30,000 bases of DNA from Chromera velia (Eukaryota > Sar > Chromeraceae): positions 1,380-31,379 of the forward strand of contig JAHBMJ010005166.1 in assembly GCA_018398765.1 (NCBI GenBank), written 5' to 3'. Below the pieces are notes generated by a model. That model saw nothing but the letters and a program-made list of their open reading frames with translations, was not told the origin of the DNA and did not search any database. The first letter of the stretch is position 1, and each line of letters opens with the position of its first letter. Positions 7,122 to 27,247 of the stretch are shown in pieces. Made by a program: the position numbers and the translations under genes.

Positions 7122-8766
7122 TAGTGACCATGTTTGATTTGATTATATTTGATTTGATTTGATTTGATTTGATTTGAGCTTCAACCTCAAATATTTGATA
7201 TTTGAGGTAAGATTTGAGGTTAACCTCTTAGGGTTCCTCACTGAGTCACTGACTTACTGTCACTCTGATCATTTTTCTCATGACAATAGTTATCAGAACA
7301 TTTCTGATGTGTGTTTCAAAAATTTAAAAATATATATATATAATTATAACTTATCAGTTCCGTAAAAAAAATATGCCTGTGTGGCAGTGTATATACACTA
7401 GTCACTGAGACTCACTCTAGTACTAATAGAGATTAAGAACGTAAAATTGATAGATTTGAAATTGCATATGACTTTTTGTTGATACGATAAAGTTAGAGCA
7501 CGTACCAAAATTGAGGTGACAATCACTCAGCTTTATGGCACTTCCTTTTCCTCTTCTTCATGATCACTTTCTTCAATGTGAATCGAATCGATCGGTGGTG
7601 GGAGCTGCTGAGAGCTTTTTCTCTGGCTTTTCGGCTTTCCAGGAGTGGGTGCTCCTGGGCTTCTATTCGGTTGCGGAGAGATGACAACGGGGTGAGACGG
7701 AGAACCGCGCACACGTTTGCTATTGCTGTTGGTGTTGGAACCGTCCTATTTCTGGGCAGCTAAGCATCCAGAGTTGGTAAGTTCGGCTACCCTCTGTGCC
7801 GTGCCAGGGCCGACAACAAGCCCCTTGTATTGGAGGTGAATATAGAGAGGTCGGTAGCCTTCCTCACCCGGAGTGATGACTTTCTCAGGAGGGGGAAGTT
7901 TCCCCCTAGCCTTCTCAGCATTTGCGTCTGCGGCCGCCTCCTTTGGTTTCAAATTAGTCCTCCCGCTGGGCCCTGCAGGAGCAGCCCCCCCTCCAGCACT
8001 GTCAGCAGCCCCCCCATTGCCTTTTCCCTTGCCTTTCTGGACAGCTGCTTCGTCCCCCCCGCCCCCTCCAACCGCTTCTCCTGTCTTTCTTGGAGTAGCT
8101 GCACATGTTTGTCAGACGTGATCGTCAAGCCATGCTGATTGATGAGGTGGGTTTGAAAAGAACTGGTTGCCGCTGCTGCATACTCACAGCCACAAATAAT
8201 TTCTCCTTCCCCCTCGGCTCCTTGTATTTTCACCTGATACTGAATCACATTTGCCCCCTTTTGCACGGACCATATTTTTTTTGCGTACCCGGCTCTAAAA
8301 ACAAATGCCTCCTTCTTCCCGTTCGACCTTGTCAGATTGTATGACATGTCTTTACGGGGTGTAAAATGTTTGCAGACGCTTAAAAAGGGGGCCGTAAAAG
8401 ATGTTCCAGCACCAGAAAAGTCAACACAGCTGTTTGGGAAAACGTTCAGCTGATCGGTTTACCTCTGCATGAAGTAAAAGGAGGTGAAACGTCAATTTCA
8501 GTACAGCTCAAAACGTTTTTTTTTTGAGAGCAAACCATCAAGATTTAGGTTTTTTCATTTAAATCAGCATGCGTGACGGATCGGTACTTGCAAAAGGTTT
8601 TTTGGGACCTTCATATTTGAGGTTGAAAGTCATATTGATCAAATATTTGATCGTATTTGATAGGTCTTTAAACACTAGGTCCTTCCTGACTGGATATTTG
8701 ATTTGAGCTTAAGCCCTGCCTCAAATCAAATCAAATCAAATCAAATCAAATCAAACATGGTCACTA
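7122..8766 (-). mobile_element. Non-autonomous hAT-like DNA transposon
   Basis: Inverted termini TAGTGACCATGTTTGATTTG start at 7122 and, reversed, end at 8766. Both are followed inward by runs of TTTGA units. The 8-bp GTGATATA lies directly outside both ends (7114-7121 and 8767-8774), a perfect target duplication. Eight-base duplications and termini of the YARNG type (here TAGTG) are typical of the hAT superfamily. The length is 1645 bp. Inside is one minus-strand protein relic with a zinc-finger-like motif but no hAT catalytic domain, so the copy would depend on a transposase made elsewhere. Confidence 0.8.
7533..8347 (-). pseudogene. BED-finger-like protein relic inside the hAT-like element
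   Basis: Starts at an ATG (8347). The N-terminal part has a possible BED or C2H2-like zinc finger: ICGCEY then QTHLINQHG, that is C-x-C, a spacer and H-x4-H. Hypervariable G runs near 8000-8060 mark a likely frameshift. Past them the better frame is a Gly/Ala/Lys-rich linker followed by KPKEAAADANAEKARGKLPP and EEGYRPLYIHLQYKGLV, interrupted by TAG at 7746-7748. It stays open to an acidic tail (ESDHEEEEKEVP) and TAA at 7533-7535. hAT transposases carry an N-terminal BED finger, which fits the host element. The catalytic RNase-H-like and dimerisation regions are absent. DNA binding is inferred; the first finger pair has one residue fewer than usual. Confidence 0.5.
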
Positions 8767-13403: not shown

Positions 13404-14369
13404 TTAGACTTCCTCAGTAGCAGTACGAGTAAACACGGCTGCACTGTCATTCAAAGCAGACGTCTCTCCTCCCGACCCTGCCACCTGGGAGGATCTTGTA
13501 GTTGCTGCCCTCTGCACAGGCGCAGGGGCAGAAGAGTCCTTCACAATCTCCGGGATGGCACTGTCCTTCTCAGGAGGAGGGGGCGTCCTGTCCACAGGGC
13601 CCTTGTGCAGGATGGCAGTCACGCCTGCAGCAAGTGCAGCCCCGGCCAGCGGCCCGGCCCAGTAGATCCACCAGGAGGTCATCAGGTCTTCTTCGTTGGC
13701 GGGGTCAGCGGCGAGGGACACCATGGCCGGACCGAATGTGCGTGCGGGGTTGATCGAGCACCCAGTGAAGGGCACGAGGACCATGTGGGAGATGGCGACT
13801 GCCAACCCGATGGCAAAGGGGGGCTGCGAAGGTTGGGCAGGGGAGCGGGTGTCGATGGCGGTTTGCACGACCACCTTGCAGAGAAGGAATGTGCCCATGA
13901 TCTCAAGGACAAAACCATTCCACTCGTTCACGCCCTTGCTGAGGGTAGTGGCAGCAAGAAGGAAGGGTGGGTATGCCCCTTCGTTTAGGGGGTCATCCTT
14001 AAGAGCGCTGGTGGCAGCCCACACCAGCAAGGCGCCCAGGAGGGACCCTGCGAACTGGGCAGTCCAGTAGAGGGCGGCGCGGATGGGGGACACTTTCCGG
14101 AGGATGAGGAGACAGAAGGTGACTGCGGGGTTGATGTGGGCCCCACTGATCTGGGCAGTCGACCAGGCAAGCACAGCGATAGAGAGACCGAAGGCGAGGG
14201 GCACTGTAGGGAGAAGAGGAGCCTCAAGGAACTTGCAGGCGATGACAGAGGAGCAGCCCATGAAGACAAAAGTGGCCATGTTGACAAATTCAACCAAAGA
14301 GGCTCTTGTCAGATCCTCAGGGGTGTCCTGGAGGACGCGAAGCTTCACTCCTCTAATTCTCGCAAACAT
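13404..14369 (-). CDS. Aquaporin (major intrinsic protein family), water-channel type
   Basis: Intronless, 321 residues. It forms a six-helix membrane channel for water or small neutral solutes. The two half-helix signatures are SGAHINPAVT (NPA at 80-82) and TGCSINPARTFGPA (NPA at 207-209). The selectivity-filter positions, aligned by eye to animal AQP1, are F60, H195, C204 and R210, the set of strict water channels. The Thr and Ala of NPARTFGPA and the WIYWAGP segment also favour aquaporin over glycerol facilitator, which would have Asp/Arg there. Helices lie at about 28-46, 55-72, 97-120, 150-170, 185-202 and 232-254. The tail after 255 is long, Pro/Ser/Thr-rich and cytoplasmic, a likely regulatory region. 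The start is the first ATG, directly before the conserved core. The cellular membrane cannot be told. Confidence 0.95.
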   Translation of the reverse strand: MFARIRGVKLRVLQDTPEDLTRASLVEFVNMATFVFMGCSSVIACKFLEAPLLPTVPLAFGLSIAVLAWSTAQISGAHINPAVTFCLLILRKVSPIRAALYWTAQFAGSLLGALLVWAATSALKDDPLNEGAYPPFLLAATTLSKGVNEWNGFVLEIMGTFLLCKVVVQTAIDTRSPAQPSQPPFAIGLAVAISHMVLVPFTGCSINPARTFGPAMVSLAADPANEEDLMTSWWIYWAGPLAGAALAAGVTAILHKGPVDRTPPPPEKDSAIPEIVKDSSAPAPVQRAATTRSSQVAGSGGETSALNDSAAVFTRTATEEV

Positions 14370-15766
14370 TTTTTCAGTCTCTGGTTCTTGTTAATAAATA
14401 CTTGGATGATTTTTTGTCTTCCCTTTCGGGAACAAAAATGTGCCGAGAGCACGACTGTGAGTTGTAATAAAACAAGACTGCAAGCAGCCAGCAAGTCAAA
14501 TTGAGTAAGCGAAGCCGGAACTTTGGTCAAACCACGCCGATTGAGATAGATTCTTCAAGAAGGGTCAGACTGAGATGTTTTTTTCAGTGCAGAGACTGAC
14601 AGAGTGACTGAAAACGAAAACTCCTTTGAACCAAGCTTTACGTATATTAATATACGGATGGAGCTTGCAGAGTCAAGGGCGGCTCAGAGAGTTTCACAGG
14701 GACTTTGGAACTCAAAAAAGTATTGAGAGGGTGTGCCATGGTGTGCCAATGCAACGAGATCCAGTGAACGAGTTCAGCTTGGAAGGAGACGGCACTTATT
14801 TTTGGAAAATTAAAAACCTCCGCCAAAAACCGCGTGCTGGAGAAGGGGCCTGTAAAGCGAAAAAAAAAGACATTGAAGTTCTCGCGGGCGCGCAAATTCA
14901 GTGTTGACAAAAAAAAAGTGGCGCTGCTGTTATCTGCTGTTGACGCGAGGAGGAGTCCGTGGATGTCCGTGGAAAGGTTCCTTTTATATTCCTTTTATTA
15001 GTAATTGGCTCGGTTCGCAGTGCATGATCGTCAAACCATTGCGGTTCTCAGTTGCGCAGTCGGCAGACGGTCCGTCCAGGTTGGAAGGCTGATGATAGAT
15101 GTAGATCGAGCGCCTCTCTCAGTCTGATTGACAGACAACATTTCCACAGCTTCCCAGCCGTCTCCTAGTTTTCTGTTCTCTTTTCTTTGAACCCGTATCC
15201 TCTTTGAGAAAACGCGTGAGCAGAAAGGCAAGGAAGCCCTTCTCGCAGCAAGAGGGTGCGAAATTCCAAAGACTGCGAGGAACGGAAGGGGTTGAAGCCC
15301 AAGGAACGAAGGAAGATTCACTTTCCCATTGAAACAAGTGGTCAGTCAACCCTTTTTTCGTTTTTGAAGGGAAAAGTGCACACAGTCATGTGATTAGCGA
15401 AGGAGGACAAAAGTATATCGAAGCAGGTCGACCATAGCACCCCTCGCAAAGCCCTGGAAGAAAACGAGCGCACGAATGCACAAATCACGCAGCCCGATTG
15501 AAAGGGATGGCCAGCGCGAAGAGGAAGGAATGAGAGGCAGACCGAGGACAGACCGAGGACGTTCTTTTATTTTTTTTTCCGTTGTGGGTCCAAAATCCTC
15601 CAAAAAGGAATTGACCGACACACACATTGGACCCTCCGGAGTTTCCTCTTTTGAGTTCATGCGGAAGGTCGCTGTCCTGCCTTTCCACCCATCTGTCTGT
15701 ATGCCTGCTTGCCTTCCGTTCCTCTATTCATTTATCTCCCCTCTTTCCGTCCTGCCGTCGTCTCTT
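14370..15766. other. Spacer upstream of the aquaporin, no gene seen
   Basis: Contains the presumed aquaporin promoter side (just above 14370) with no clear TATA box. Open frames on both strands lack conserved motifs. A small palindrome TATATTAATATA lies near 14643-14654. Confidence 0.5.
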
Positions 15767-15929: not shown

Positions 15930-16483
15930 GTCTGTCTGTCTGTCTGTTATGTACATGAAGAAACGAAGGAAAAAAAAAAACATATAGTCTGTCTGGGAGA
16001 AGAAGACACATGTAGTCTGTCTGTTCATGAAGAAGAGGCAGGAAAGAAACCATGTCGTGATGTTCTTTTGTCTTTGTTGCTTTCTTTCTTTTTGTCTGTT
16101 GCGTTCATGAAGAAGAGGAGGGAAAGGAACCGCATAGTCTGTCTGTCTGTCGGCCCCACCCCTGTCTGAAGACCATGACGGTGCCGGTTCCCACGTGCAG
16201 TTTTTCTTTCTTTTTTTCTTTGTTGTTTTTTCTCGTCTTTTTCTTTTCTCTCTCTTGTCTTGAGTGGAAGCAGCAGAGGATAAACGTGTGATCACACCCA
16301 GTGATCATGTGAAAGTCTGTCGGGAGATGGAGAGGCAAGGGGCGCTTAACTCTCACCTTTCGGGCCCCCTGCCCACTTTGTCTGAGTTGTCGTGATGTTC
16401 TTTTGTCTTTGTTGCTTTCTTTCTTTTTGTTTGTTGTGTTCATGAAGAAAAGGAGGGAAAGAAACCATATAGTCTGTCTGTCT
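15930..16483. repeat. Cluster of dispersed repeat copies (copy B 16265-16483 and partial copies)
   Basis: Copy B matches copy A in the dioxygenase intron over its whole length. The TTCATGAAGAAGAGGAGGGA...AGTCTGTCTG module also occurs at about 15945, 16022 and 16107, and a longer partial (from GTCGTGATGTTC) at 16053-16151. Copy B contains a perfect inverted repeat, TGATCAC-ACCCA-GTGATCA. The arrangement looks like tandem insertion or duplication of one short family whose ends are GTCT repeats. Confidence 0.7.
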
Positions 16484-17162
16484 TCGGTAGTCTGTCTTCG
16501 GCCGTGTCTCTCTGTGGCTGTGTGTGTGTGAGAGAGAGAGAGGGAGAGGTACCTTCTCCACTTTGCTCGATGATCTGGAAAGCATTTTTTTTGCTTTTGC
16601 GCTCCGTTTTGAGCGCGATGAGTACAGATGCCTGTGCGTGACGGAAAAATGTGCTGGGTGTGTGTTTTGTTTTCATGTTTGTTCCTGACCTTTCTGGCTT
16701 GCGTGCAGGACGAAAACGGGACGAAAAAAGAGAAGAGGGGGAGCACGTAGAGAGGCGTGCGTCCACACACACACACGCACAAAAGGAGGACACTGAACAG
16801 AGCCTCTTGCTTCGCCCGCTGGTGAGGCAAAAGAGAAGGAGAGCAAAGAGAACGGGGAGGGAAGGTAGTGTCCTGCGAAACGATCAAGTATTTCCCTCAG
16901 TGATACACAAGTCAATAAACGACTTCAGGAAGAGACAGTGAAGAAGAGTGCAAGGAGGTGGAGCGAGAAAGAAAAGAAAGAAACAAAGAAAGGAAGGAAG
17001 GAAATCAAAGAAACGATCCCACAAGCTGACAGACTGACCGACAGTTAGAAACAGAGAGGCACACACACGCACTCTCAGGGGGGGGGCAGAAAAGCGGGAG
17101 AAAAAAGGGAGGGGCGGCCAGGATTTGTGTGTGAAAGGACGAAGAAATAATACAAAAAAGGA

Positions 17163-17198
<36 letters not shown>

Positions 17199-17212
17199 AA
17201 AGGGCCAGAAGA
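16484..17212. other. 5' flank of the farnesyltransferase gene, purine-rich
   Basis: No gene is seen. The plus strand becomes strongly purine-rich, ending in an AAAG tract (about 17161-17200) directly before the ATG at 17213. It probably contains the promoter and 5' UTR, but no TATA box is evident. Confidence 0.5.
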
Positions 17213-19039
17213 ATGGCCAAATACCGTACCTCTCTGTACCTGGACGGAGTGCCCACTCACACATCAACAGAGCAGCAGGAAACAGAGCAGTCCGTTCTGT
17301 CCATTTTCAAAAGTTTCATCGACTTACAACTGAAGGAGGATGAGGTATCGATCAAAAGAGCCGACCACATAGCCTTCCTCTCAAAGGCCCTCGAGGGCTT
17401 GCCAGAGAAGCTGGTCTCTCTCGACGCTTCTCGACCCTGGTTGTCCTTCTGGTCGCTCCATGCGTTGGAGCTCTTAGGGGGGTTGGGAGACAAAGAAAGA
17501 AAGGAGTTGCGTCCGCGTGTGAGTGCCTTTTTGAAAACTTGTCAGACTGCAACGGGGGGGTTTGGGGGGGGGCCTGGTCAACTGCCTCACTTAGCACCTA
17601 CTTATGCATCCATAGCCTCCCTGTTGATTGTCGGGGGTGAGGAGGCATTGTCTGTTGTTGACAGGGGTGCTCTGTATGCCTTCCTGCTCAGACAGAGAGA
17701 CGGGGAGACGGGGGGATTTCGAATGCATGAGGACGGTGAGCTGGACATGAGGGGGGCGTATTGTGCCATAGCGTCTGCTTCGATGTGTCAGATCCTTACG
17801 CCGCAGTTGACTGAGGGGCTGGTTGAGTATGTAAAGAGCTGCCAGACCTGGGAAGGGGGCATTGCGGGAGAGCCTGGGTTGGAGGCTCACGGGGGATACA
17901 GCTACTGTGGACTTGCGGCCTTGTCTATCATTGGGAAAGCGCAGGAGCTAGAGCTCGTCCGTCTGATTGACTGGCTAGTGCATAGGCAGATGGGCCTCGA
18001 AGGGGGGTTCTGTGGTCGGACGAACAAACTAGTCGACTCGTGTTACTCCTTTTGGCAGGGTGCTGCGTTCCCTTTAGTGAAGGAGGCACTTAGGATAAAA
18101 AAGATTCAAAGAGAAGGGAAGGCGGTGGGTGAGGCAGAGACAGAGACGGTTGGGGAGTTTTTGTGTAGTCAATTGGAGACCGTCCTTCTCGAGAGGGATC
18201 TGTTTTCGCCCTACCGTTTGCAGATGTACGTCTTCCTTTGTTGTCAGGAGACAGAGGCCAACAAGGGGGGGTTGCGAGATAAACCTTCGGCAAAGTGTGA
18301 CCTGTATCACTCCTGTTATTCGCTTTCAGGTCTGTCTGTTGCACAGCACGGACACCCTCTTCAGCAGGGGGGGTGGGAGGGGGGAGAGGGAGAGGGAGGG
18401 GAGTGTTTCCGGGGGGCGAGGGCGGAACAGGACAAAGCGGAAGATGTAGAGAGCGTTGGGAGAGATGGAGGAAATGCATCAGCAGATCAGCATGAGCCAG
18501 GCGGAAAGAATGCAAGTGAAAAGGAGAAGAACGGAAGTTTCCAAAAAGGAGCAGACAATTCACAATGCTCTTCTTCTTCTTCTTCTGCCTCTTCAGCTGC
18601 TGTCGCTCGGGGAGAAGACAGTAGAAGCAACAGCAAGCAGAGGAAAGGGGGAGGTGGGAAAGGGGGTGTGCAGTCGAATTCGAAATGGCCATTTGTTTTC
18701 GGGTCTCCTCAAAATCTTCTGGAGCCCACTTGTTTCTTCTATAACGTCTCCCCGATGCGAGCGCAAGAAGCTCGAGAGTACTTCTCGTCTCTGCCTCCTT
18801 TGCCCCTGTCCGTCTCGCAGCAGCAAGATGGCTCTCCGTCTTCCTCTGTGCCCCTCGCCCCCTCTCCTCCGTCTGTAGAAGGGGGACAGTCGATACCCAG
18901 TACTGGAATTCAACTGGCGGGTGCAGTGGACATCGGGGTCGGGGAAGGGAGTAGAGAGCTGGGGGGAGAGGAAGGGGCCGGAGTGACACAGTTTGTGGAT
19001 TGGCAGAGAGAGCTGCTGGACCGAGCTAGGTTCAGTTAG
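17213..19039 (+). CDS. Protein farnesyltransferase beta subunit
   Basis: Intronless, 608 residues. With an alpha subunit (not in this window) it would attach farnesyl to the Cys of C-terminal CaaX proteins in the cytosol. It has the prenyltransferase repeat barrel: RPWLSFWSLHALELLG (74-89), GGFGGGPGQLPHLAPTYAS (115-133), GGFRMHEDGELDMRGAYC (167-184), EGGIAGEPGLEAHGGYSYCG (214-233), GGFCGRTNKLVDSCYSFWQG (264-283). The zinc ligands are D275, C277 and H366, with Y365 beside H366 as in FTase. Diphosphate-site residues H226, R269 and K272 are present, and DLYHSCYSLSGLSVAQH marks FTase rather than geranylgeranyltransferase I. About residues 380-500 form a Gly/Glu/Ser-rich insert, after which LLEPTCFFYNVSPMRAQEA matches the usual C-terminal segment. 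Animal and yeast subunits are about 430-440 residues, so the insert explains the extra length. The ATG follows an AAAG tract. Confidence 0.93.
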   Translation: MAKYRTSLYLDGVPTHTSTEQQETEQSVLSIFKSFIDLQLKEDEVSIKRADHIAFLSKALEGLPEKLVSLDASRPWLSFWSLHALELLGGLGDKERKELRPRVSAFLKTCQTATGGFGGGPGQLPHLAPTYASIASLLIVGGEEALSVVDRGALYAFLLRQRDGETGGFRMHEDGELDMRGAYCAIASASMCQILTPQLTEGLVEYVKSCQTWEGGIAGEPGLEAHGGYSYCGLAALSIIGKAQELELVRLIDWLVHRQMGLEGGFCGRTNKLVDSCYSFWQGAAFPLVKEALRIKKIQREGKAVGEAETETVGEFLCSQLETVLLERDLFSPYRLQMYVFLCCQETEANKGGLRDKPSAKCDLYHSCYSLSGLSVAQHGHPLQQGGWEGGEGEGGECFRGARAEQDKAEDVESVGRDGGNASADQHEPGGKNASEKEKNGSFQKGADNSQCSSSSSSASSAAVARGEDSRSNSKQRKGGGGKGGVQSNSKWPFVFGSPQNLLEPTCFFYNVSPMRAQEAREYFSSLPPLPLSVSQQQDGSPSSSVPLAPSPPSVEGGQSIPSTGIQLAGAVDIGVGEGSRELGGEEGAGVTQFVDWQRELLDRARFS

Positions 19040-19647
19040 ATCATGTAATGATTATCCAATTAGTTGACTGAACCAGACCGATTGATTTGTAAGTAGATTG
19101 ATCGTGATCAATTTTAGCATGATGTAGTAGCATCAAATTGCCATCGATTGCTAAATTGATAATTGATTGTATCAGTCTAGGTATCAGTAGGAAGGATTAA
19201 TGTCTGATACTAGGCTATTACTAGCAATGATAGTAGTCATTAAAAAACTCATCACATACTGATTCCTAGACTGATTCATAAATTAAGTGACTTATTGATA
19301 TGAAAACAAAATAATGATTCTTTATTAATAAATAAATCCTTGCAATATAGTAACGTATAGGCCCTGCACTACATAAAAAAACAAAGCAAAAGATCGGAAA
19401 AACTTTTTTTTATTAATTTTTTTTTTTATCATAGCAGTCAACAGGCAAAGTGTGCCGCAAACAACTGTTGTTCAAGTGTTGCAGGAGTGTTGCGTAAAAA
19501 CTATATGTTTTTTGGTTGATAAATAAAAAAAAGAAAAAAAAGATTAGAAAGTTCAATATGGAAACTTTCTTTTTCTTTTTTCTTTTTTTGTTTATGTATG
19601 GAGTGCACAGCCTCAATAATAACTAGCCTAGTTCACAGATTACTAGA
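19040..19647. other. AT-rich spacer between the farnesyltransferase gene and the Ty3 element
   Basis: No gene. Overlapping AATAAA motifs at 19327-19336, about 290 bases past the stop codon, are candidate polyadenylation signals for the farnesyltransferase gene. A/T homopolymers fill 19400-19440 and 19500-19590. Confidence 0.45.
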
Positions 19648-20143
19648 TGTTAAGCATACGTAGAGCTAGCGTATAGGACTACGACTTCTACTTACGTGTA
19701 TCTACGTAAAGGTCTGTTCGTCTGGTCGTTCATCTTTCAACTCCTTTTAGAAAGATTTCAGGTTGGCTACTCAGAACAGATATGATCGGTCAGTCAGACT
19801 GCATTCGTGTACGCGTTGTGCATGTAGTATGGTATTCATCTGTATCAGTCTACTTAAATGCATGTCATCTCTGTATTTGCTGTGTCCATCTTTCTGACGT
19901 CTGTTCTGTCTCTGTGTCATTCCGTTTTGTGTGAACTCACTTCTGTGGTATTTCTTTTTCCATGTATTCATGCATGCATTGTAAACTGCATGAGCGCTCT
20001 GCATGTGTGCGCAGTGCTTATTGCCTGACCTCGCCTTGCGCTTTCTTTATTGCTCGGCGTGCGCGTATGAATTCTTTCTAGTCCTGCCTCGCGCTTTCTT
20101 TATCGCTCGGCGTGCATGCATAAATTCTTTCTGGTCCCCAACA
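19648..20143 (-). repeat. 3' LTR of the Ty3 element
   Basis: 496 bp, paired with 26089-26587. Both have TGTT...AACA ends. A 53-bp unit is tandemly duplicated at 20027-20079 and 20080-20132. Confidence 0.95.
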
Positions 20144-20270: not shown

Positions 20271-23200
20271 TCAACTCAGTCCCATCAAAACCTTTTCTTT
20301 CTCTCTTTCAAATTCTTGAACCATCTCAGGCAAGTCAATCTCTTCCTCTGATAACCAGGCAAACGTTCCGTCGTCGAACGAGACTCGGTACGTTTCCTTG
20401 CCGTCTCGAATTCCACTCGCAGAGATACGGACTGGCGAAGGGCCCTTCCGTCAGGCTCCCCACTTCCGCCCCTCCACTGCCTGAGCAGGTACTTCCAACT
20501 CATCTCCCAGTCCCAACTCATCCAACAAATCCTCCAACTCCGGATCTTCTGCCAATCGAAAGTCCAATTGAGGAGTGCCTGGTAGAATGATCACTCTTTC
20601 TCTTTCAGACGATCTTCTCATCTCTGTAGCTACTCTCTTCTCCTCCTGGTGTCTCTCTTCCCTCGGCAGTGCAGAGTCTTCTTCTGCCTTACTCTCCTCA
20701 CTCTTTTCACTCTCTTCCTTCTCTCCATCTTTTGGCTCCCACAATCGCAATCTGTCTGAACTCACCACGTCCCTCTTCTTTCCTCCTAAGGGCCTGATCA
20801 CGGTCATATGTGGTCTGTTCCTCGGTGTCCCCACGACCATATAGGTTCCTTCTGCTCTCGCCTCGAAGGCAGGTTACTTCCCTATCGGATTAGGAGGTCT
20901 GCGCAGGAACACACGGTCCCCTAGACGGAATCTTCGCATCATCGGAGGGGGATTACGCCTTTCCCTTGCTTGCTTCTCTTTCTCTGCTCTTGTGACTGCT
21001 CTGTCGATCTTCTGCACACGTTCTTGTCGAATGAATCCATAGTAGTCGTCATAACAGACAGGCGGAGACCTCGCTCCCTCAGGCGGTGGTTGCACATGCA
21101 ACATTGACTGCGGCGTGTGAGCAAACAACAATTCAAAGGGAGAGAGACCTGTCTCGGCATGGGAAGCAGTGCGGTATGCTGCATTGTACGGCTGGAGATA
21201 GAGATCCCAATCTCCTTTCTCTTGATCTAGCTGCTTCCCCACTCCCTCAGCCCATGAACGATTGAATCGCTCAGGGATGCCGTTCGCCTGTGGATGATAC
21301 CCTGTTGTGGTATGGTGACGGACCTTCATGAGGGTAAGGAGCTCCCTCACAATCTCGCTAAGGAAGTTCGTCCCTCTGTCCGACACCAACTCCTCGATAA
21401 AGCCATACCTGCAGATGATCTCCTCGAAAAGAATCTTTGCAACAACCCATGCGGGGACCTCTGGCAAGGCAAAGGTCTCTGGCCATCGTGTGAGGGCACA
21501 CGTGATGACAAAGACAAATCGGTTGCCTCTACGGGAGGTAGGCAAAGGACCTTTCACATCAATGCCGACCTTCTGGAAGGGTCAAGTGGGGACGGGAACG
21601 GTCTGTGGGTTGCGTTGCGGTGCTTGTGCTCTTCTCTCTTGACAGGGGCGGCACTTGTAGACCCAGCTGCGCACATCCTTACGCAGACCTGGCCACCAGA
21701 ATTCGGTGAGAAGCCGAGCTGTCAGCTTCTTTGTTGCTGCGTATCCTGCCATGGGGTGATTGTGGTACATCACCAGCACTGTCTCTCTCAAATGGGCAGG
21801 GACATACAACTGCTCAGACTCACCTGAAAACCTGTAGAGCAAGCCATCTCTTAACTCGAACAAAGACTCCTGTGCTAGCACCGTCCGTCGGCGCTGAAGA
21901 TCCTCCGGAAGAGACTTCTTCTGCAGATACTCAAACACATCTTTCACCTCCACCTCTGTTGGCTCTGAACGTCGCACCTTCTCTAGGAAAGGAACGATTG
22001 CTTGTGTGGGTGCGGACTCGGCTTTGATTACCTTCACTCCTGCCACTGCTGCATCAAATCCTGATCTGAGGGGAGTGCTTCTATCAGAAGGAAGGAAACA
22101 GTGCTGACAGAGGGGAGCGCCTGTGTCTGTCGAATGCTCTACCTGTCTCGGGACAGGCAGACGGGAAACAGCATCTGCATCGGTGTGGGACTTTCCCTCC
22201 TTATACAAAAACTGCAATCCATACTCCTGCAATTTGAGAGCCCATTTCTCGATTCTTTTATTCGCCAACTTGTTCTCCTGCATTGCTAGATTCGGTTTGT
22301 GATCGGTCTGGATCACCCACAAGAAAACGGAACTGCCAAGCAGGTAGTGTCTCCACTGCCTGCAGCAAAACACATTTGCCAGAGCCTCTCGCTCTGGAGC
22401 TCTATAATGTAGCTCCACCCCCTGTAATCCCCTGCTTGCGTATGCGATCACACTCTCCCTCCCGTCCTTGATTTATACCAAAACACCCCCAATCGAAATG
22501 TTGCAAGCATCCAGCTTCACAATGAATGGGGTATGCATATCAGGGAAGGAAAGGATAGGTGGCTCAGTGAGACGGTTGCGAAGCTCCCGGAAAGCTTCAT
22601 CTGCTGCGGCTGTCCAGACAAAGGGAAGGGGCTGCTTGTTCTCATCAAAGGGACGCAACAGTTGATTCAGCGGATGGGCAATCCGCGCAAACCCCTCCAT
22701 AAAAGTTCGGTAGTAGTTGCACAAGTAAACGAATGTGCGAAGGCCCTGGCTCGGACGGTCGGTCGGGGTCGGCCAGTTCTTTACCTTCTCCATGTTCTTT
22801 CGACTTGGATGGACTCCATGGGCGGATACGGTGTGACCTAGGTACTCCACCTGTGCCTTTCCAATCTGTGCCTTTTCGAGGCGGAGCTTCAGACCGGCGG
22901 CACAAACAAGGGTGAAGACCTCACGGAGGTCCTGCAAGTGCTCGGCGTGACTGCAAGAGAAGATGATGACATCATCGACGTAGACAAGTGCTATCTCTCG
23001 TGGGAGCGATGCGAGGACGAGCGTCATTACTCATTAGAAAAGGGCGGGTGCGTTGACTAAACCAAAGGGCATACGAAGAAATTTAAACAGCCCAAACGGA
23101 GTGATGAAGGCTGTCTTCTCTCTGTCCTCTTCCTTCAAGGAAAGCTGATGGAAGCCCAAGGTGTAGTCAAGTGTAGAGAACACTGACAAGCCGGCAAGCT

Positions 23201-24806
23201 TGTCAAGTGTCTCCTAGATACGTGGAAGCGGAAAGAGATCCCGCTTGGTGGCTGCGTTGAGTCGTCAAAAGTCGAGGCAGAATTGGGTCGAGCCGTCTGA
23301 CTCAGGTTTCTTGACAAGAACGACCGGAGCTGCCCATGGAGAATGCGAGGGTTGAATGATCCCTGCACTCTGCATTGCATTCAATTCTTTCTTCACATCC
23401 TCTCACTGGTAATAGGGGATTCGGTCCTGCTGCCATCTGATGGGAACGCTCGTCTCTGTAGGGATAGTCACTTCATATGGCTTCCTCCCCACCTTCAATT
23501 CTCCCAAATCAAAATGTCCCCGTGACTACAGGTCTCCAAATTCCCCCAACAAACCCACATACTCCCCCTTCATCTCCTGTGGGACATCTGAGATGACCTT
23601 CTCCAAATCGATTGGAGGAAGGTCCTTTGAAGACTCTGTAGGCATGTCTGCCTTTGGAGGAGTCTGCAAGCGAGAAGAGAAAGGGGAGCGAAGCGAGGGA
23701 TGCGTATCTGCACTCTGTGCATTCGACAAAGTAGGTGGAGCGACTGACCGAGAGTATGTCGGGGCCTGCTCCCCGGACCGCACTTCCAGCGGTTTTCCCG
23801 AGGACATGCGATCATATCTCTCCAGTCTCTCGGCCGTCTGAGTCGTCTCCATACTCCATGGTCCTGCGTCCCGTTTTTCTGCTGTCACAGCAGTCACTGC
23901 CGCAATGTGAGAAGGCGGCTCTGCAAAGGACAGTGCTATCTTTGAACCGACTATGATTTTCGAACGGGAAATGTTTGTGACCTCAATGACTGCGATGCCT
24001 CCCTGTACGGTAGTCAGCTGAGCAGGAACAGCCAGACCAGGATGGCTACGGGGGAAGTTCTTTCAAATAAGGACTTCCGAACCATCCGGGGCATCGACGG
24101 ACACTTGAAGGAGGGAGCGGTGCCATCGGGGCACACGCGTCCTCTTTGTGGCACACACCTTCGTCGATTTCAGACCATTATCATACCAGACCTCAAAGGG
24201 AGGAAAGTCTCCCATATACAGCTTTCCCCCCCCAAAAAGTTTAAAAGAAACATCAGATCGGGATCGAAGAAAATCCATCCCAAGAACCACATCGTACTTT
24301 GAATTCTCCGTCACCAGTACTGGGTGCTTAAAAATTTTCTTGGGTGCAGACTCATGCGAAAACTCTGCACACATCTCTCCCACTACCAGAATTCCATTGT
24401 TCCCCAACGCACTCAAACCAACACTCGCCGTCTGCATTTCATAATCTGCAGATGTGAGAAAAGAGATGCTGATCACACTGGTTTGTGCACCTGAATCCAA
24501 CACTGCAGATGCCTTTCGGCCAAAAAGAAACAAACTCACCCAAGGGCGGGCTGCTACCTCAACTGTGGCTGCAGCACCTGGCGTCTTTGGGAAAGGGAAG
24601 ACAGACGACCTCCCGGCAGCAGCAAACGAATTCGGGTTATCAGCAGCAACGCCACGAGAAGTAGGGACATCTTGCGACTTCTGCGAAAGCCTGCTAAAAT
24701 CATGGTCCTCCTCCCAAACGATTGCAGGCACACAGGGAGGAGGCAACTTCTGATCACTCACGGAGGACAAGCCTGCCTCTAAGCCCGTCCCCCTCTCCCG
24801 TTTCCC
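20271..24806 (-). pseudogene. Ty3/gypsy pol polyprotein (PR-RT-RH-IN), stop-interrupted
   Basis: From the frameshift site the same frame runs to TGA at 20271-20273. Protease has DSGAQTSVI (D at 24497) and DVVLGMDFL. RT has [47 protein letters not shown] and YVDD (22971-22982). RNase H has IVKLDACN, IAYASR, QTDHKPNL and SHTDADAVSRLP. Integrase has a zinc-binding segment (HPMAGYAATKK, CRPCQ) and DDE core (GIDVKGPLP, SDRGTNF, GIPERFNRS). A C-terminal region ends with a chromo- or Tudor-like [19 protein letters not shown]. Stops: 24063 TGA, 23526 TAG, 23403 TGA, 23265 TGA, 23214 TAG, 23034 TAA, 23031 TGA, 22473 TAA, 21582 TGA, 20874 TAA, 20451 TGA. No net indel was found. The second His of the integrase zinc motif is Tyr here (21741-21743). 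Confidence 0.93.
24762..24806 (-). promoter_or_regulatory. Programmed -1 ribosomal frameshift signal between gag and pol
   Basis: On the minus strand the heptamer GGGAAAC (24806-24800) is phased G GGA AAC in the gag frame, the X XXY YYZ form. After six bases (GGGAGA) comes a stem GGGGGAC (24793-24787) pairing with GTCCTCC (24768-24762), seven pairs including one G-U, with an 18-nt loop. Gag terminates at TAG 24779-24781, within that loop. Slipping back one base enters the pol frame, which is open here. The same heptamer serves in some retroviral gag-pro junctions. Confidence 0.75.
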
Positions 24807-25954
24807 TGATTCCTGCCCCCACTCCCTCGCGGTGCATCGGGGCACTGTGCGATTCGATGCTCTTTTGAACCACATTGCCTACACCCCACATAATTGGGAT
24901 GCCCCAGTGTATTCCCTCCGGGGACACTTTAGGAAGACGAAGAGGAAGTTGGGTATCCTTGTCCTCTCCCCCCTCTCCCTCTCTAGTTCCCTCCACGTGC
25001 CCCTCCATTGTATTTATGTCCAAACGATGCCGCCATCGACTGCTGTAGGGCAGCCGACGCTTCTTGGGGGTACTGCGCCTGTCTCTGCAGCGAGTCGATA
25101 CTTGACTGCAGAGAAGAGATTTGGGCACGCAGTTGCTTAACGTCATCGGCAGACTTCGTGGCTGGGGCCATCTTGGCAGAAGGATTTGGTCCCTTCTTTT
25201 GCTCCTGTTGATGAAGGAACAGCACTTGAAGGATCAGCTTGGCATACTCTTTATGGGCAGGCTCTGTGGTGATTTCCATAGAGAGCGAGGGATAGAGGGT
25301 CCCGAGGAAGGGGAGCATACGAGCGTTGATCTCGTGCCCGGGTTGGACGACCCTCATTTTGGCTTCGAAGACCTTGACATGCGCGTCAAAGTCACCTATG
25401 GGGAAGAGCTTAAGTTGAGACAGCTCATACACTGCCTGCTGGCTCTCGGCTTCGGTGGGCATGAATCTGTCCAGGAACGCCTGCTCGAACTCTTTGATAG
25501 TGGTGTACTGGTGCGTGTTTTTGGCTATCCACTCTCAAACTTCCACTCCCTCCGCATGCCTCTCAAACAGAACTTTACACTCCTCTATGTTCAGATTCCC
25601 GTTCCTCACCTTCTTCATGAAGATGGACATCCAAACCACGGGGTCGTCTTCCCTCTTCTTGAATGGCTCCATGACTCTTCGGACGTCAAGAGCCTTAAAC
25701 TTGGTCATGTCCACATTGGGAGGTGCTTGGGCCTGTCCGTGTTGGCCTGCCTGCTGCTGCTGCTGCTGTTGTTGATGTTGGGGTGCCTGCGGTGCCTGCG
25801 GTGCCTGCTGCTGCTGGGCTTGTGCGAGTTGCTGGGTCAGTAGCTGCTGGACCTGCTGGGCTGCAGCAAGATCTGCATCTCTCTGCTGCAACTGTGCCTG
25901 CAAGGCATCGATCTATACCTGCAGGGCTGCTGGATCTGGAGGTCCGCCCGACAT
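24779..25954 (-). pseudogene. Ty3/gypsy gag, stop-interrupted, with CCHC zinc knuckle
   Basis: Frame from ATG 25954 (MSGGPPDP) to TAG 24779-24781, about 391 codons; the frame is open further upstream to about 26055, so the true start is uncertain. An N-terminal Gln-rich coiled coil (LQQRDADLAAAQQ, then runs of Gln and Gln-Ala-Pro) is followed by a retrotransposon gag domain (VVWMSIFMKKVRNGN, EWIAKNTHQYTTIKEFEQAF, GHEINARMLPFLGTLYPSL). Next is a second coiled coil, a Gly/Arg region and the nucleic-acid-binding knuckle C-RQ-C-GSKE-H-RIAQ-C at 24883-24842. In-frame stops: TAG 25913, TGA 25535, TAG 24983, TAA 24929. Gag would form the particle and package the RNA. The knuckle is intact. Confidence 0.88.
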
Positions 25955-26088: not shown

Positions 26089-26587
26089 TGTTGAGCATAC
26101 GTAGGGCTAGCGTATAGGACTACGACTTCTACTTAATACGTGTATCTACGCAAAGGTCTGTTCGTCTAGTCGTTCATCTTTTAACTCCTTCTAGAGAGAT
26201 TTCAGGTTGGCTACTCAGAACAGATATGATCGGTCAGTCAGACTGTATTCGTGTACGCGTTGTGCATGTAGTATGGTATTCATCTGTATCGGTCCACTTA
26301 AATGCATGTCACCTCTGTATTTGCTGTGTCCATCTTTCTGATGTCTGTTCTGTCTCTGTGTCATTCCGTTTTGTGTGAACTCACTTCTGTGGTATTTCTT
26401 TTTCCATGTATTCATGCATGCATTGTAAACTGCATGAGCGCTCTGCATGTGCGCGCAGTGCTTATTGCCTGACCTCGCCTTACGCTTTCTTTATTGCTCG
26501 GCGTGCGCACATGAATTCTTTCTAGTCCTGCCTCGCGCTTTCTTTATCGCTCAGCGTGCGCGCATAAATTCTTTCTGGTCCCCAACA
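26089..26587 (-). repeat. 5' LTR of the Ty3 element (promoter LTR)
   Basis: 499 bp, ends TGTT...AACA. Near its transcriptional start side a 53-bp unit is repeated in tandem (26471-26523 and 26524-26576), each with an ATAAAG motif, which could serve as an enhancer or core promoter. It has three bases more than the 3' LTR near 26135. Confidence 0.95.
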
Positions 26588-27247
26588 CTAGAGTTGAACT
26601 TGTTTTCTTTATAATTGAATTAATCCTATTGTATCATAACTTATATATGTCATACACACTGTACACTGTCCATGCACATAAGAGTAATGGCTATAGAATA
26701 GCAACGAGGCGGCCGTAAGGCCGCCGAGTTACGGTTTTTTAGTAACTAAAGCTTTAAAATGATGAATTATGGAAAAACAGTAACACAACCTCCTGATTAT
26801 AGCCTGATATACGATTATTCAGTTATGAATATCAACTACTGGGAACAAGACTGAATTTAATCTATTCAAAACTTAATTACTTTTCGAGGTCCATAGCTAC
26901 CTTTACATTCAAAAGGTTGACAAAACAATAGAAAAGATTGACCTTGCAAGCCCTTCCTATCCCCCCCTCTTCTCTTAATTATAGCCTTTTTAACTGCCGG
27001 CTTTGGCTTTTGCCTTGCTTTTTAGTCTTCCTTTACCCTTCGCCTTTACACTGTCTTGAATACTGTCTATACCGAGAGTGCCTCCCACTATCTCCCACTC
27101 ATCGACCAATAGTTTTACTGAAATGTGAAGACTTATCATGTAGATTGCTTCATGAGTGTCTATTTCCTCTTAGCATGGGTGCATAAGCAGTTTCAAATTT
27201 GACTTGTCACTGAAGAACCGTGAGATTTCTATACTGGGGCCTACACT
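26588..27247. other. AT-rich spacer with a GC hairpin
   Basis: No gene. It holds a strong hairpin at 26708-26725 followed by six T (26735-26740), described separately. Confidence 0.55.
26708..26740. repeat. GC-rich nested inverted repeat followed by a T run
   Basis: GGCGGCC-GTAA-GGCCGCC is a perfect 7-bp stem with a 4-base loop (26708-26725). An overlapping pair CCGTAA (26713-26718) and TTACGG (26729-26734) gives an alternative stem. TTTTTT follows. Its shape resembles a bacterial terminator, but in this eukaryotic AT-rich setting a transposon end or cruciform is as likely. Confidence 0.5.

Follow-up and report, generated by a model that had tools for sequence, protein, structure and literature searches.

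In-frame stop codons in a dead Ty3/gypsy element of Chromera velia and the decay of C:G to T:A on both strands

Decay of transposable elements through C:G-to-T:A mutation is a known process, and the case described here, in a Ty3/gypsy long terminal repeat (LTR) retrotransposon of the alga Chromera velia, is of that kind. The element is a dead copy whose coding region lies on the minus strand at positions 20271-25954 of a stretch of 30,000 nucleotides (contig JAHBMJ010005166.1 of assembly GCA_018398765.1, positions 1,380 to 31,379; hereafter the window, whose numbering is used throughout), and by comparison with the Ty3/gypsy elements of C. velia CCMP2878 it bears 15 in-frame stops. In Zymoseptoria tritici, dim2-dependent mitotic C:G-to-T:A changes are concentrated in transposable elements and disable their genes through nonsense codons; as described in PMC8016269, more than 98% of the C>T changes of the dim2 strain fall at CpA, with CpG hardly changed, and where DNA is methylated the dim2-positive strain has many more C>T changes, again almost always at CpA. 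The MATE repeats of Aspergillus nidulans, which undergo repeat-induced point mutation (RIP), are changed on both strands, at CpG and then at CpA (PMC2621366). A TpCpG type is described from Microbotryum (PMC5381629), and retrotransposons of Symbiodinium that carry methyltransferases have been suggested to methylate themselves (PMC5890265).

As in Z. tritici, C:G-to-T:A changes in the C. velia element have produced nonsense codons that disable its genes, but here CpG exceeds CpA. The present host is, moreover, an alga whose matches to the Pfam family PF00145 are DNMT2-like where they could be read. Neurospora-type RIP has CpA as its main target, in contrast to the rates found here (CpG about 0.109, CpA about 0.077). 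The element shares with A. nidulans MATE repeats the involvement of both strands and the order of CpG and CpA, but its changes accumulated in a graded manner, without sign of a sexual-cycle burst. Long LTR elements were changed here and one short repeat was spared, which would suit RIP. Hypermutation of retroelements by APOBEC/AID enzymes leaves C-to-T nonsense codons, strand bias and strand-coherent clusters; the C-to-T nonsense is shared by the C. velia element, but strand bias is absent, as are strand-coherent clusters among singleton changes.

Stop codons and strand balance

Sibling copies were sought in the genome (177.8 Mb, 4040 contigs) with three pieces of the element, 501 to 551 bases long, as DNA queries. 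At least 29 further copies of the family were found, 89-97% identical over the aligned parts and some of them partial; this number is a lower bound because part of the candidates was scored (the best 40 of 63, 20 of 20, and the best 40 of 68, one figure per query). Copies were defined by contig, and two overlapping matches on contig C3262 were merged into one. Stops were scanned from 25990 to 24790 in the gag frame and from 24785 to 20272 in the pol frame, at codons with at least eight siblings. A change was called private where the window copy departs from the letter common to 90% or more of its siblings, with no fewer than eight siblings present.

Four of the 15 stops lie in gag (TAG 25913, TGA 25535, TAG 24983, TAA 24929) and 11 in pol (TGA 24063, TAG 23526, TGA 23403, TGA 23265, TAG 23214, TAA 23034, TGA 23031, TAA 22473, TGA 21582, TAA 20874, TGA 20451), making 4 TAA, 4 TAG and 7 TGA. 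A first-pass annotation, made from the sequence alone, had listed these stops; all were confirmed, the frame scan gave the same number and no more, and each frame is free of other interruptions. That annotation had also allowed for readthrough or recoding of the stops, and stops that are all in frame within otherwise open frames would suit such an explanation, whether through a ciliate-like code or through editing. At each site, however, one sense codon is common to 12-20 of 18-23 siblings and a stop is found in 0-7. The non-coding LTRs carry such changes as well, and the codons that gave rise to stops include those for Gln, Arg and Trp, joined in siblings by still others. We give recoding next to no chance of being correct.

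The annotation had further held that every stop came from a Gln or Arg codon, through C-to-T on the coding strand, and that the Trp codons, which report on the other strand, were intact. Judged by the commonest sibling sense codon, the stops go back to CAA (4), CAG (2), CGA (7) and TGG (2), so that 13/15 are coding-strand C>T changes, while the remaining 2/15, read as G>A, reflect C>T on the opposite strand; 2 of 23 majority-TGG codons thus became stops. Two in 15 is an ordinary yield. Among 297 stops in siblings, 53 derive from Trp codons and 17 from codons other than CAA, CAG, CGA and TGG; with the latter left out, the sibling share of 53/280 gives a probability of 0.44 for two or fewer Trp-derived stops in 15, and of 0.043 for none, the number first claimed. 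C-to-T itself is upheld as the cause of the stops, with 77 of the 87 private changes of the window copy being C:G>T:A.

The one-sided appearance of the stops can be traced to the genetic code. One-step C:G>T:A routes to a stop lead through CAA, CAG and CGA on the sense strand and through TGG on the antisense strand. That Gln and Arg codons account for most stops follows from the supply of targets, with about 150 such sense codons against 23 Trp codons (46 G positions). Majority codons number 32 CAA, 84 CAG, 34 CGA and 23 TGG for the siblings with the window copy, and 34, 83, 33 and 23, respectively, for the siblings alone. In addition, an antisense change in CGA stays hidden because the resulting CAA is no stop, and only a sense change alone makes one. 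Among 701 sibling CGA codons, 68 carried the sense change (TGA), 64 the antisense change (CAA) and 9 more both; the 34 CGA codons of the window copy had 7 sense and 5 antisense changes. In matched CpA context, Trp changed at least as often as Gln, with TGG to TAG in 40/486 and Gln to stop in 140/2339 sibling cases (Fisher p 0.08). A symmetric model, with family rates scaled to the window copy, expects 7.05 Gln-, 2.93 Arg- and 1.98 Trp-derived stops, about 12 in total, where 6, 7 and 2 were observed (P of 15 or more stops, 0.22). The apparent one-strand pattern is the product of the genetic code and C:G-to-T:A decay of both strands. Tallying stops alone lends symmetric deamination a false strand bias, since the code masks most antisense changes.

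Counts of all changes lead to the same result. Among the private changes of the window copy, 41 are C>T and 36 are G>A, the rest being 2 reverse transitions and 8 transversions; at a looser threshold 82 C>T stand against 75 G>A. Family-wide rates, taken over 30 copies (the 29 siblings and the window copy), are balanced between sense and antisense strands in every context: 768/7033 and 764/7077 at CpG (0.109 and 0.108, p 0.83), 746/9524 and 673/8959 at CpA (0.078 and 0.075, p 0.42), 293/7297 and 460/11686 at CpT (0.040 and 0.039, p 0.79), and 300/9451 and 310/9778 at CpC (0.032 in both, p 1.0). Among singletons, strand p ranges from 0.17 to 0.81 by context, with the largest gap at CpA (135/6977 and 105/6486, p 0.17).

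Strand-biased damage to the cytosines of the coding strand, by transcription-linked deamination, an APOBEC/AID-like enzyme or a RIP-like defense, had been put forward in the first-pass annotation, which named equal C-to-T and G-to-A rates on that strand as an outcome that would speak against it; such equality is what the counts give. The 13 sense-strand stops favor this explanation, as does a small deficit of strand runs over all changes (mean z -0.35, t -2.5, in 30 copies that share changes by descent). Transcription-linked deamination or an APOBEC/AID-like enzyme acting on single-stranded DNA, however, predicts asymmetry or strand-coherent runs; a RIP-like process is symmetric. Asymmetry was not seen, two stops derive from Trp codons, and runs of singletons are near random (mean z 0.04, 16 copies). 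Strand bias is therefore refuted, and we consider either of these two forms of deamination highly improbable.

Spectrum, targeting and tempo of the decay

Across the family, C:G>T:A changes affect 6.1% of C:G letters (4314 changes) and T:A>C:G changes 0.56% of T:A letters (324), a ratio of about 11. This tally leaves out 41 of 5939 columns for want of a 60% majority and 12 for coverage by fewer than 12 copies. The C>T rate is highest at CpG, followed by CpA and then by CpT and CpC. Plant-type CHG methylation was considered and rejected as a description of this spectrum: CHG is not raised as a class, CAG changed less than CAA, and the CTG and CCG rates lie within or near the range of other CTN and CCN.

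The bias extends beyond the coding region. It recurs in the LTRs, tallied in 20 of 42 listed copies together with those of the window (ratio 7.9), where CpG and CpA are alike. The bias is weaker in a sister LTR family of about 70% identity, for which two sets of loci, 5 and 6 in number and with some copies in common, gave ratios of 3.4 and 4.6. In contrast, a dispersed repeat of about 220 bp at 1880-2102 on the plus strand has no C-to-T excess, with 65 C:G>T:A (1.75%) and 75 T:A>C:G changes (1.77%) in 40 copies plus that of the window. CpG is changed in 3/427 cases in this repeat, and its transversions per site reach 0.0164, against 0.0029-0.0042 in the element; it is a single control family, to which constraint, or misalignment inflating transversions, could apply. 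Its sample combined the 20 top copies by similarity with 20 exact matches to a 30-base pattern; allowing for up to 3 mismatches, the genome contains this core at 395 places (100 of them listed, all exact). Because the bias is present in the element, in the LTRs and, weaker, in the sister family, but not in the one short repeat, the decay seems to be aimed at LTR elements. Further copies of the repeat in the window lie at 16263-16483 and, in part, at 15931-16148.

A mutation bias that simply runs through the whole genome, with CpG decay but no preference for LTR elements, would account for an observed/expected CpG ratio that is as low in the host parts of the window (0.49-0.66) as in the body of the element (0.66), and for its value of 1.07 in the LTRs. 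Against it stand the equal rates of the short repeat, which has no CpG excess despite its more numerous transversions. Overall, we think an untargeted bias distinctly unlikely.

The tempo of change bears on mechanism. In 26 copies, the density of C>T singletons follows that of transversions with a Spearman coefficient of 0.81 (0.54 for all changes), an indirect sign of a clock, given that copies without close kin hold more singletons of every kind. Because C>T is graded and tracks transversions, slow deamination fits better than a burst. This also weighs on a slow or old RIP-like defense, in which a repeat-sensing process would turn C:G into T:A within long duplications. Such a defense finds support in the symmetric C:G>T:A changes of two LTR families and the sparing of the 220-bp repeat, in the CpG-then-CpA order known from A. 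nidulans MATE repeats, in the minimum of about 400 bp that Neurospora RIP needs (PMC2621366), and in the dim2-dependent mitotic C>T at CpA in transposable elements of Z. tritici (PMC8016269). However, the length rule is not absolute, since strong CpA change has been described in a repeat of 275 bp (PMC2621366), accumulation here is graded, and TpA/ApT of the element body is 0.52. A RID-type methyltransferase is absent among the readable PF00145 matches of the genome (two DNMT2-like loci, with one match unread), and the host is in all likelihood not a fungus. A RIP-like defense is a serious contender, if an unlikely one.

Methylation enzymes and the favored explanation

The explanation that we favor, and hold to be probable, is that cytosines of LTR elements are selectively methylated and then deaminate, and that this Ty3/gypsy copy has been decaying on both strands in this way. 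After insertion, cytosines of both strands would turn into thymine in a graded, clock-like manner, fastest at CpG, then at CpA, then at CpT and CpC; the cause would be that the host places 5-methylcytosine on LTR elements, where it deaminates over time.

The genome offers mixed indications of the enzymes that such a process would involve. Four matches to the Pfam family DNA_methylase (PF00145) were found. Three of them fall within two DNMT2-like loci, C3982:50694-51056 and C1092:6065-8385, DNMT2 being the nearest relative of solved structure in each case; the fourth was unreadable. DNMT2 methylates tRNAs (PMC9998398). Two adjacent SRA-domain matches lie at C2797:69898-70705, with exons inferred. 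These matches hint at a 5-methylcytosine system in the host, which is plausible on the basis of this domain, the SRA domain being a reader of methylated cytosine. Genome searches for DNMT1-RFD and for the NAD1 deaminase gave no match, but controls were silent too, so that both are uninformative. No methyltransferase domain was found in seven Pfam-scanned pieces of gag and pol (the scan left out 20271-20873, 23031-23525 and 24879-24982). No report of cytosine methylation in Chromera was found in an open-licence library, passages of PMC4501334, PMC9778586, PMC9998398 and PMC4751559 included.

Several observations weigh against methylation and deamination aimed at LTR elements. No DNMT1, DNMT3 or DNMT5 gene emerged from the three readable PF00145 matches of the genome (the fourth being unread). 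CpG is not depleted in the LTRs and is no lower in the element body than in the host parts of the window, which counts against targeting as well; young copies could explain the lack of depletion. C>T at CpC and CpT also exceeds the A:T transitions. Arg-derived stops are in excess of the symmetric expectation (7 against 2.9, one-sided P 0.03), and the CpA rates on sense and antisense strands diverge in opposite directions in gag (0.084 and 0.068) and in the integrase part (0.073 and 0.081). To the small runs deficit over all changes is added a slight overdispersion of strand balance in single copies (standard deviation of z 1.17 in 30 copies and 1.33 in 16 for singletons), with copies at z +2.8 and -2.5, for example, for which shared ancestry may be responsible.

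A bolder proposal would be that C. velia has a repeat-targeted cytosine mutator or methylation system that acts at CpG and CpA, strikes long LTR elements and spares a short repeat without recognizable DNMT1 or DNMT3, served by a DNMT2-type or so far unrecognized enzyme, and hence a RIP-like defense outside fungi. We regard this as speculative and rather unlikely.

Element structure and wider relevance

The element is flanked by a 5' LTR of 499 bp (26089-26587) and a 3' LTR of 496 bp (19648-20143), both on the minus strand and delimited by mutual alignment. Over 496 aligned columns they differ by 19 substitutions, every one of them a transition (10 A/G, 9 C/T), besides one 3-nt gap. A target-site duplication, TCTAG, was read directly in the flanks, at 26588-26592 on the 5' side and 19643-19647 on the 3' side. 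A candidate primer-binding site, TGGTTAGCAGAGC, lies at 26085-26073, 3 bases past the 5' LTR. The gag frame runs from an ATG to a TAG (24779-25954, minus strand); the ATG is common to 16/19 siblings, and a candidate CCHC zinc-knuckle motif was spotted by eye. The pol frame (20271-24878, minus strand) encodes protease, reverse transcriptase, RNase H and integrase, and its Pfam matches, obtained for separate open pieces, follow the gypsy order (protease, RVT_1, RT_RNaseH, Integrase_H2C2, rve). Gag and pol seem to end naturally at 24779 (TAG) and 20271 (TGA), as nearly all siblings stop there too (18/19 and 20/21, respectively). The two frames overlap by about 100 bases (24779-24878), with pol one base back, an arrangement that suggests -1 frameshifting.

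Among solved structures, yeast Ty3 Gag-Pol is the best match to the RNase H part. For the piece from RNase H to integrase, 18 of 26 database relatives are named C. velia CCMP2878, four of which have 90-94% identity over 21-41% of the piece. The published C. velia assembly has 193.66 Mb in 5953 scaffolds and about 30 Mb of transposable elements (PMC4501334). Host genes in the window, identified by Pfam, are a 2-oxoglutarate/Fe(II) oxygenase (778-1914), an aquaporin (13404-14390) and a prenyltransferase subunit (17135-19039). A further repeat family lies at 7760-8440; among the best 40 of 399 candidates, the main matches are 94-100% identical, most listed copies share a 397-bp part, and open frames of the repeat gave no Pfam match over the cut-off. 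Rfam gave no match in the window.

In sum, the lasting point of interest is that a chromerid alga shows a measurable decay of C:G to T:A and that this is concentrated in its LTR elements. C. velia is a free-living relative of the apicomplexan parasites. Should methylation lie behind the decay, chromerids would be well suited to asking when apicomplexans lost or changed DNA methylation.

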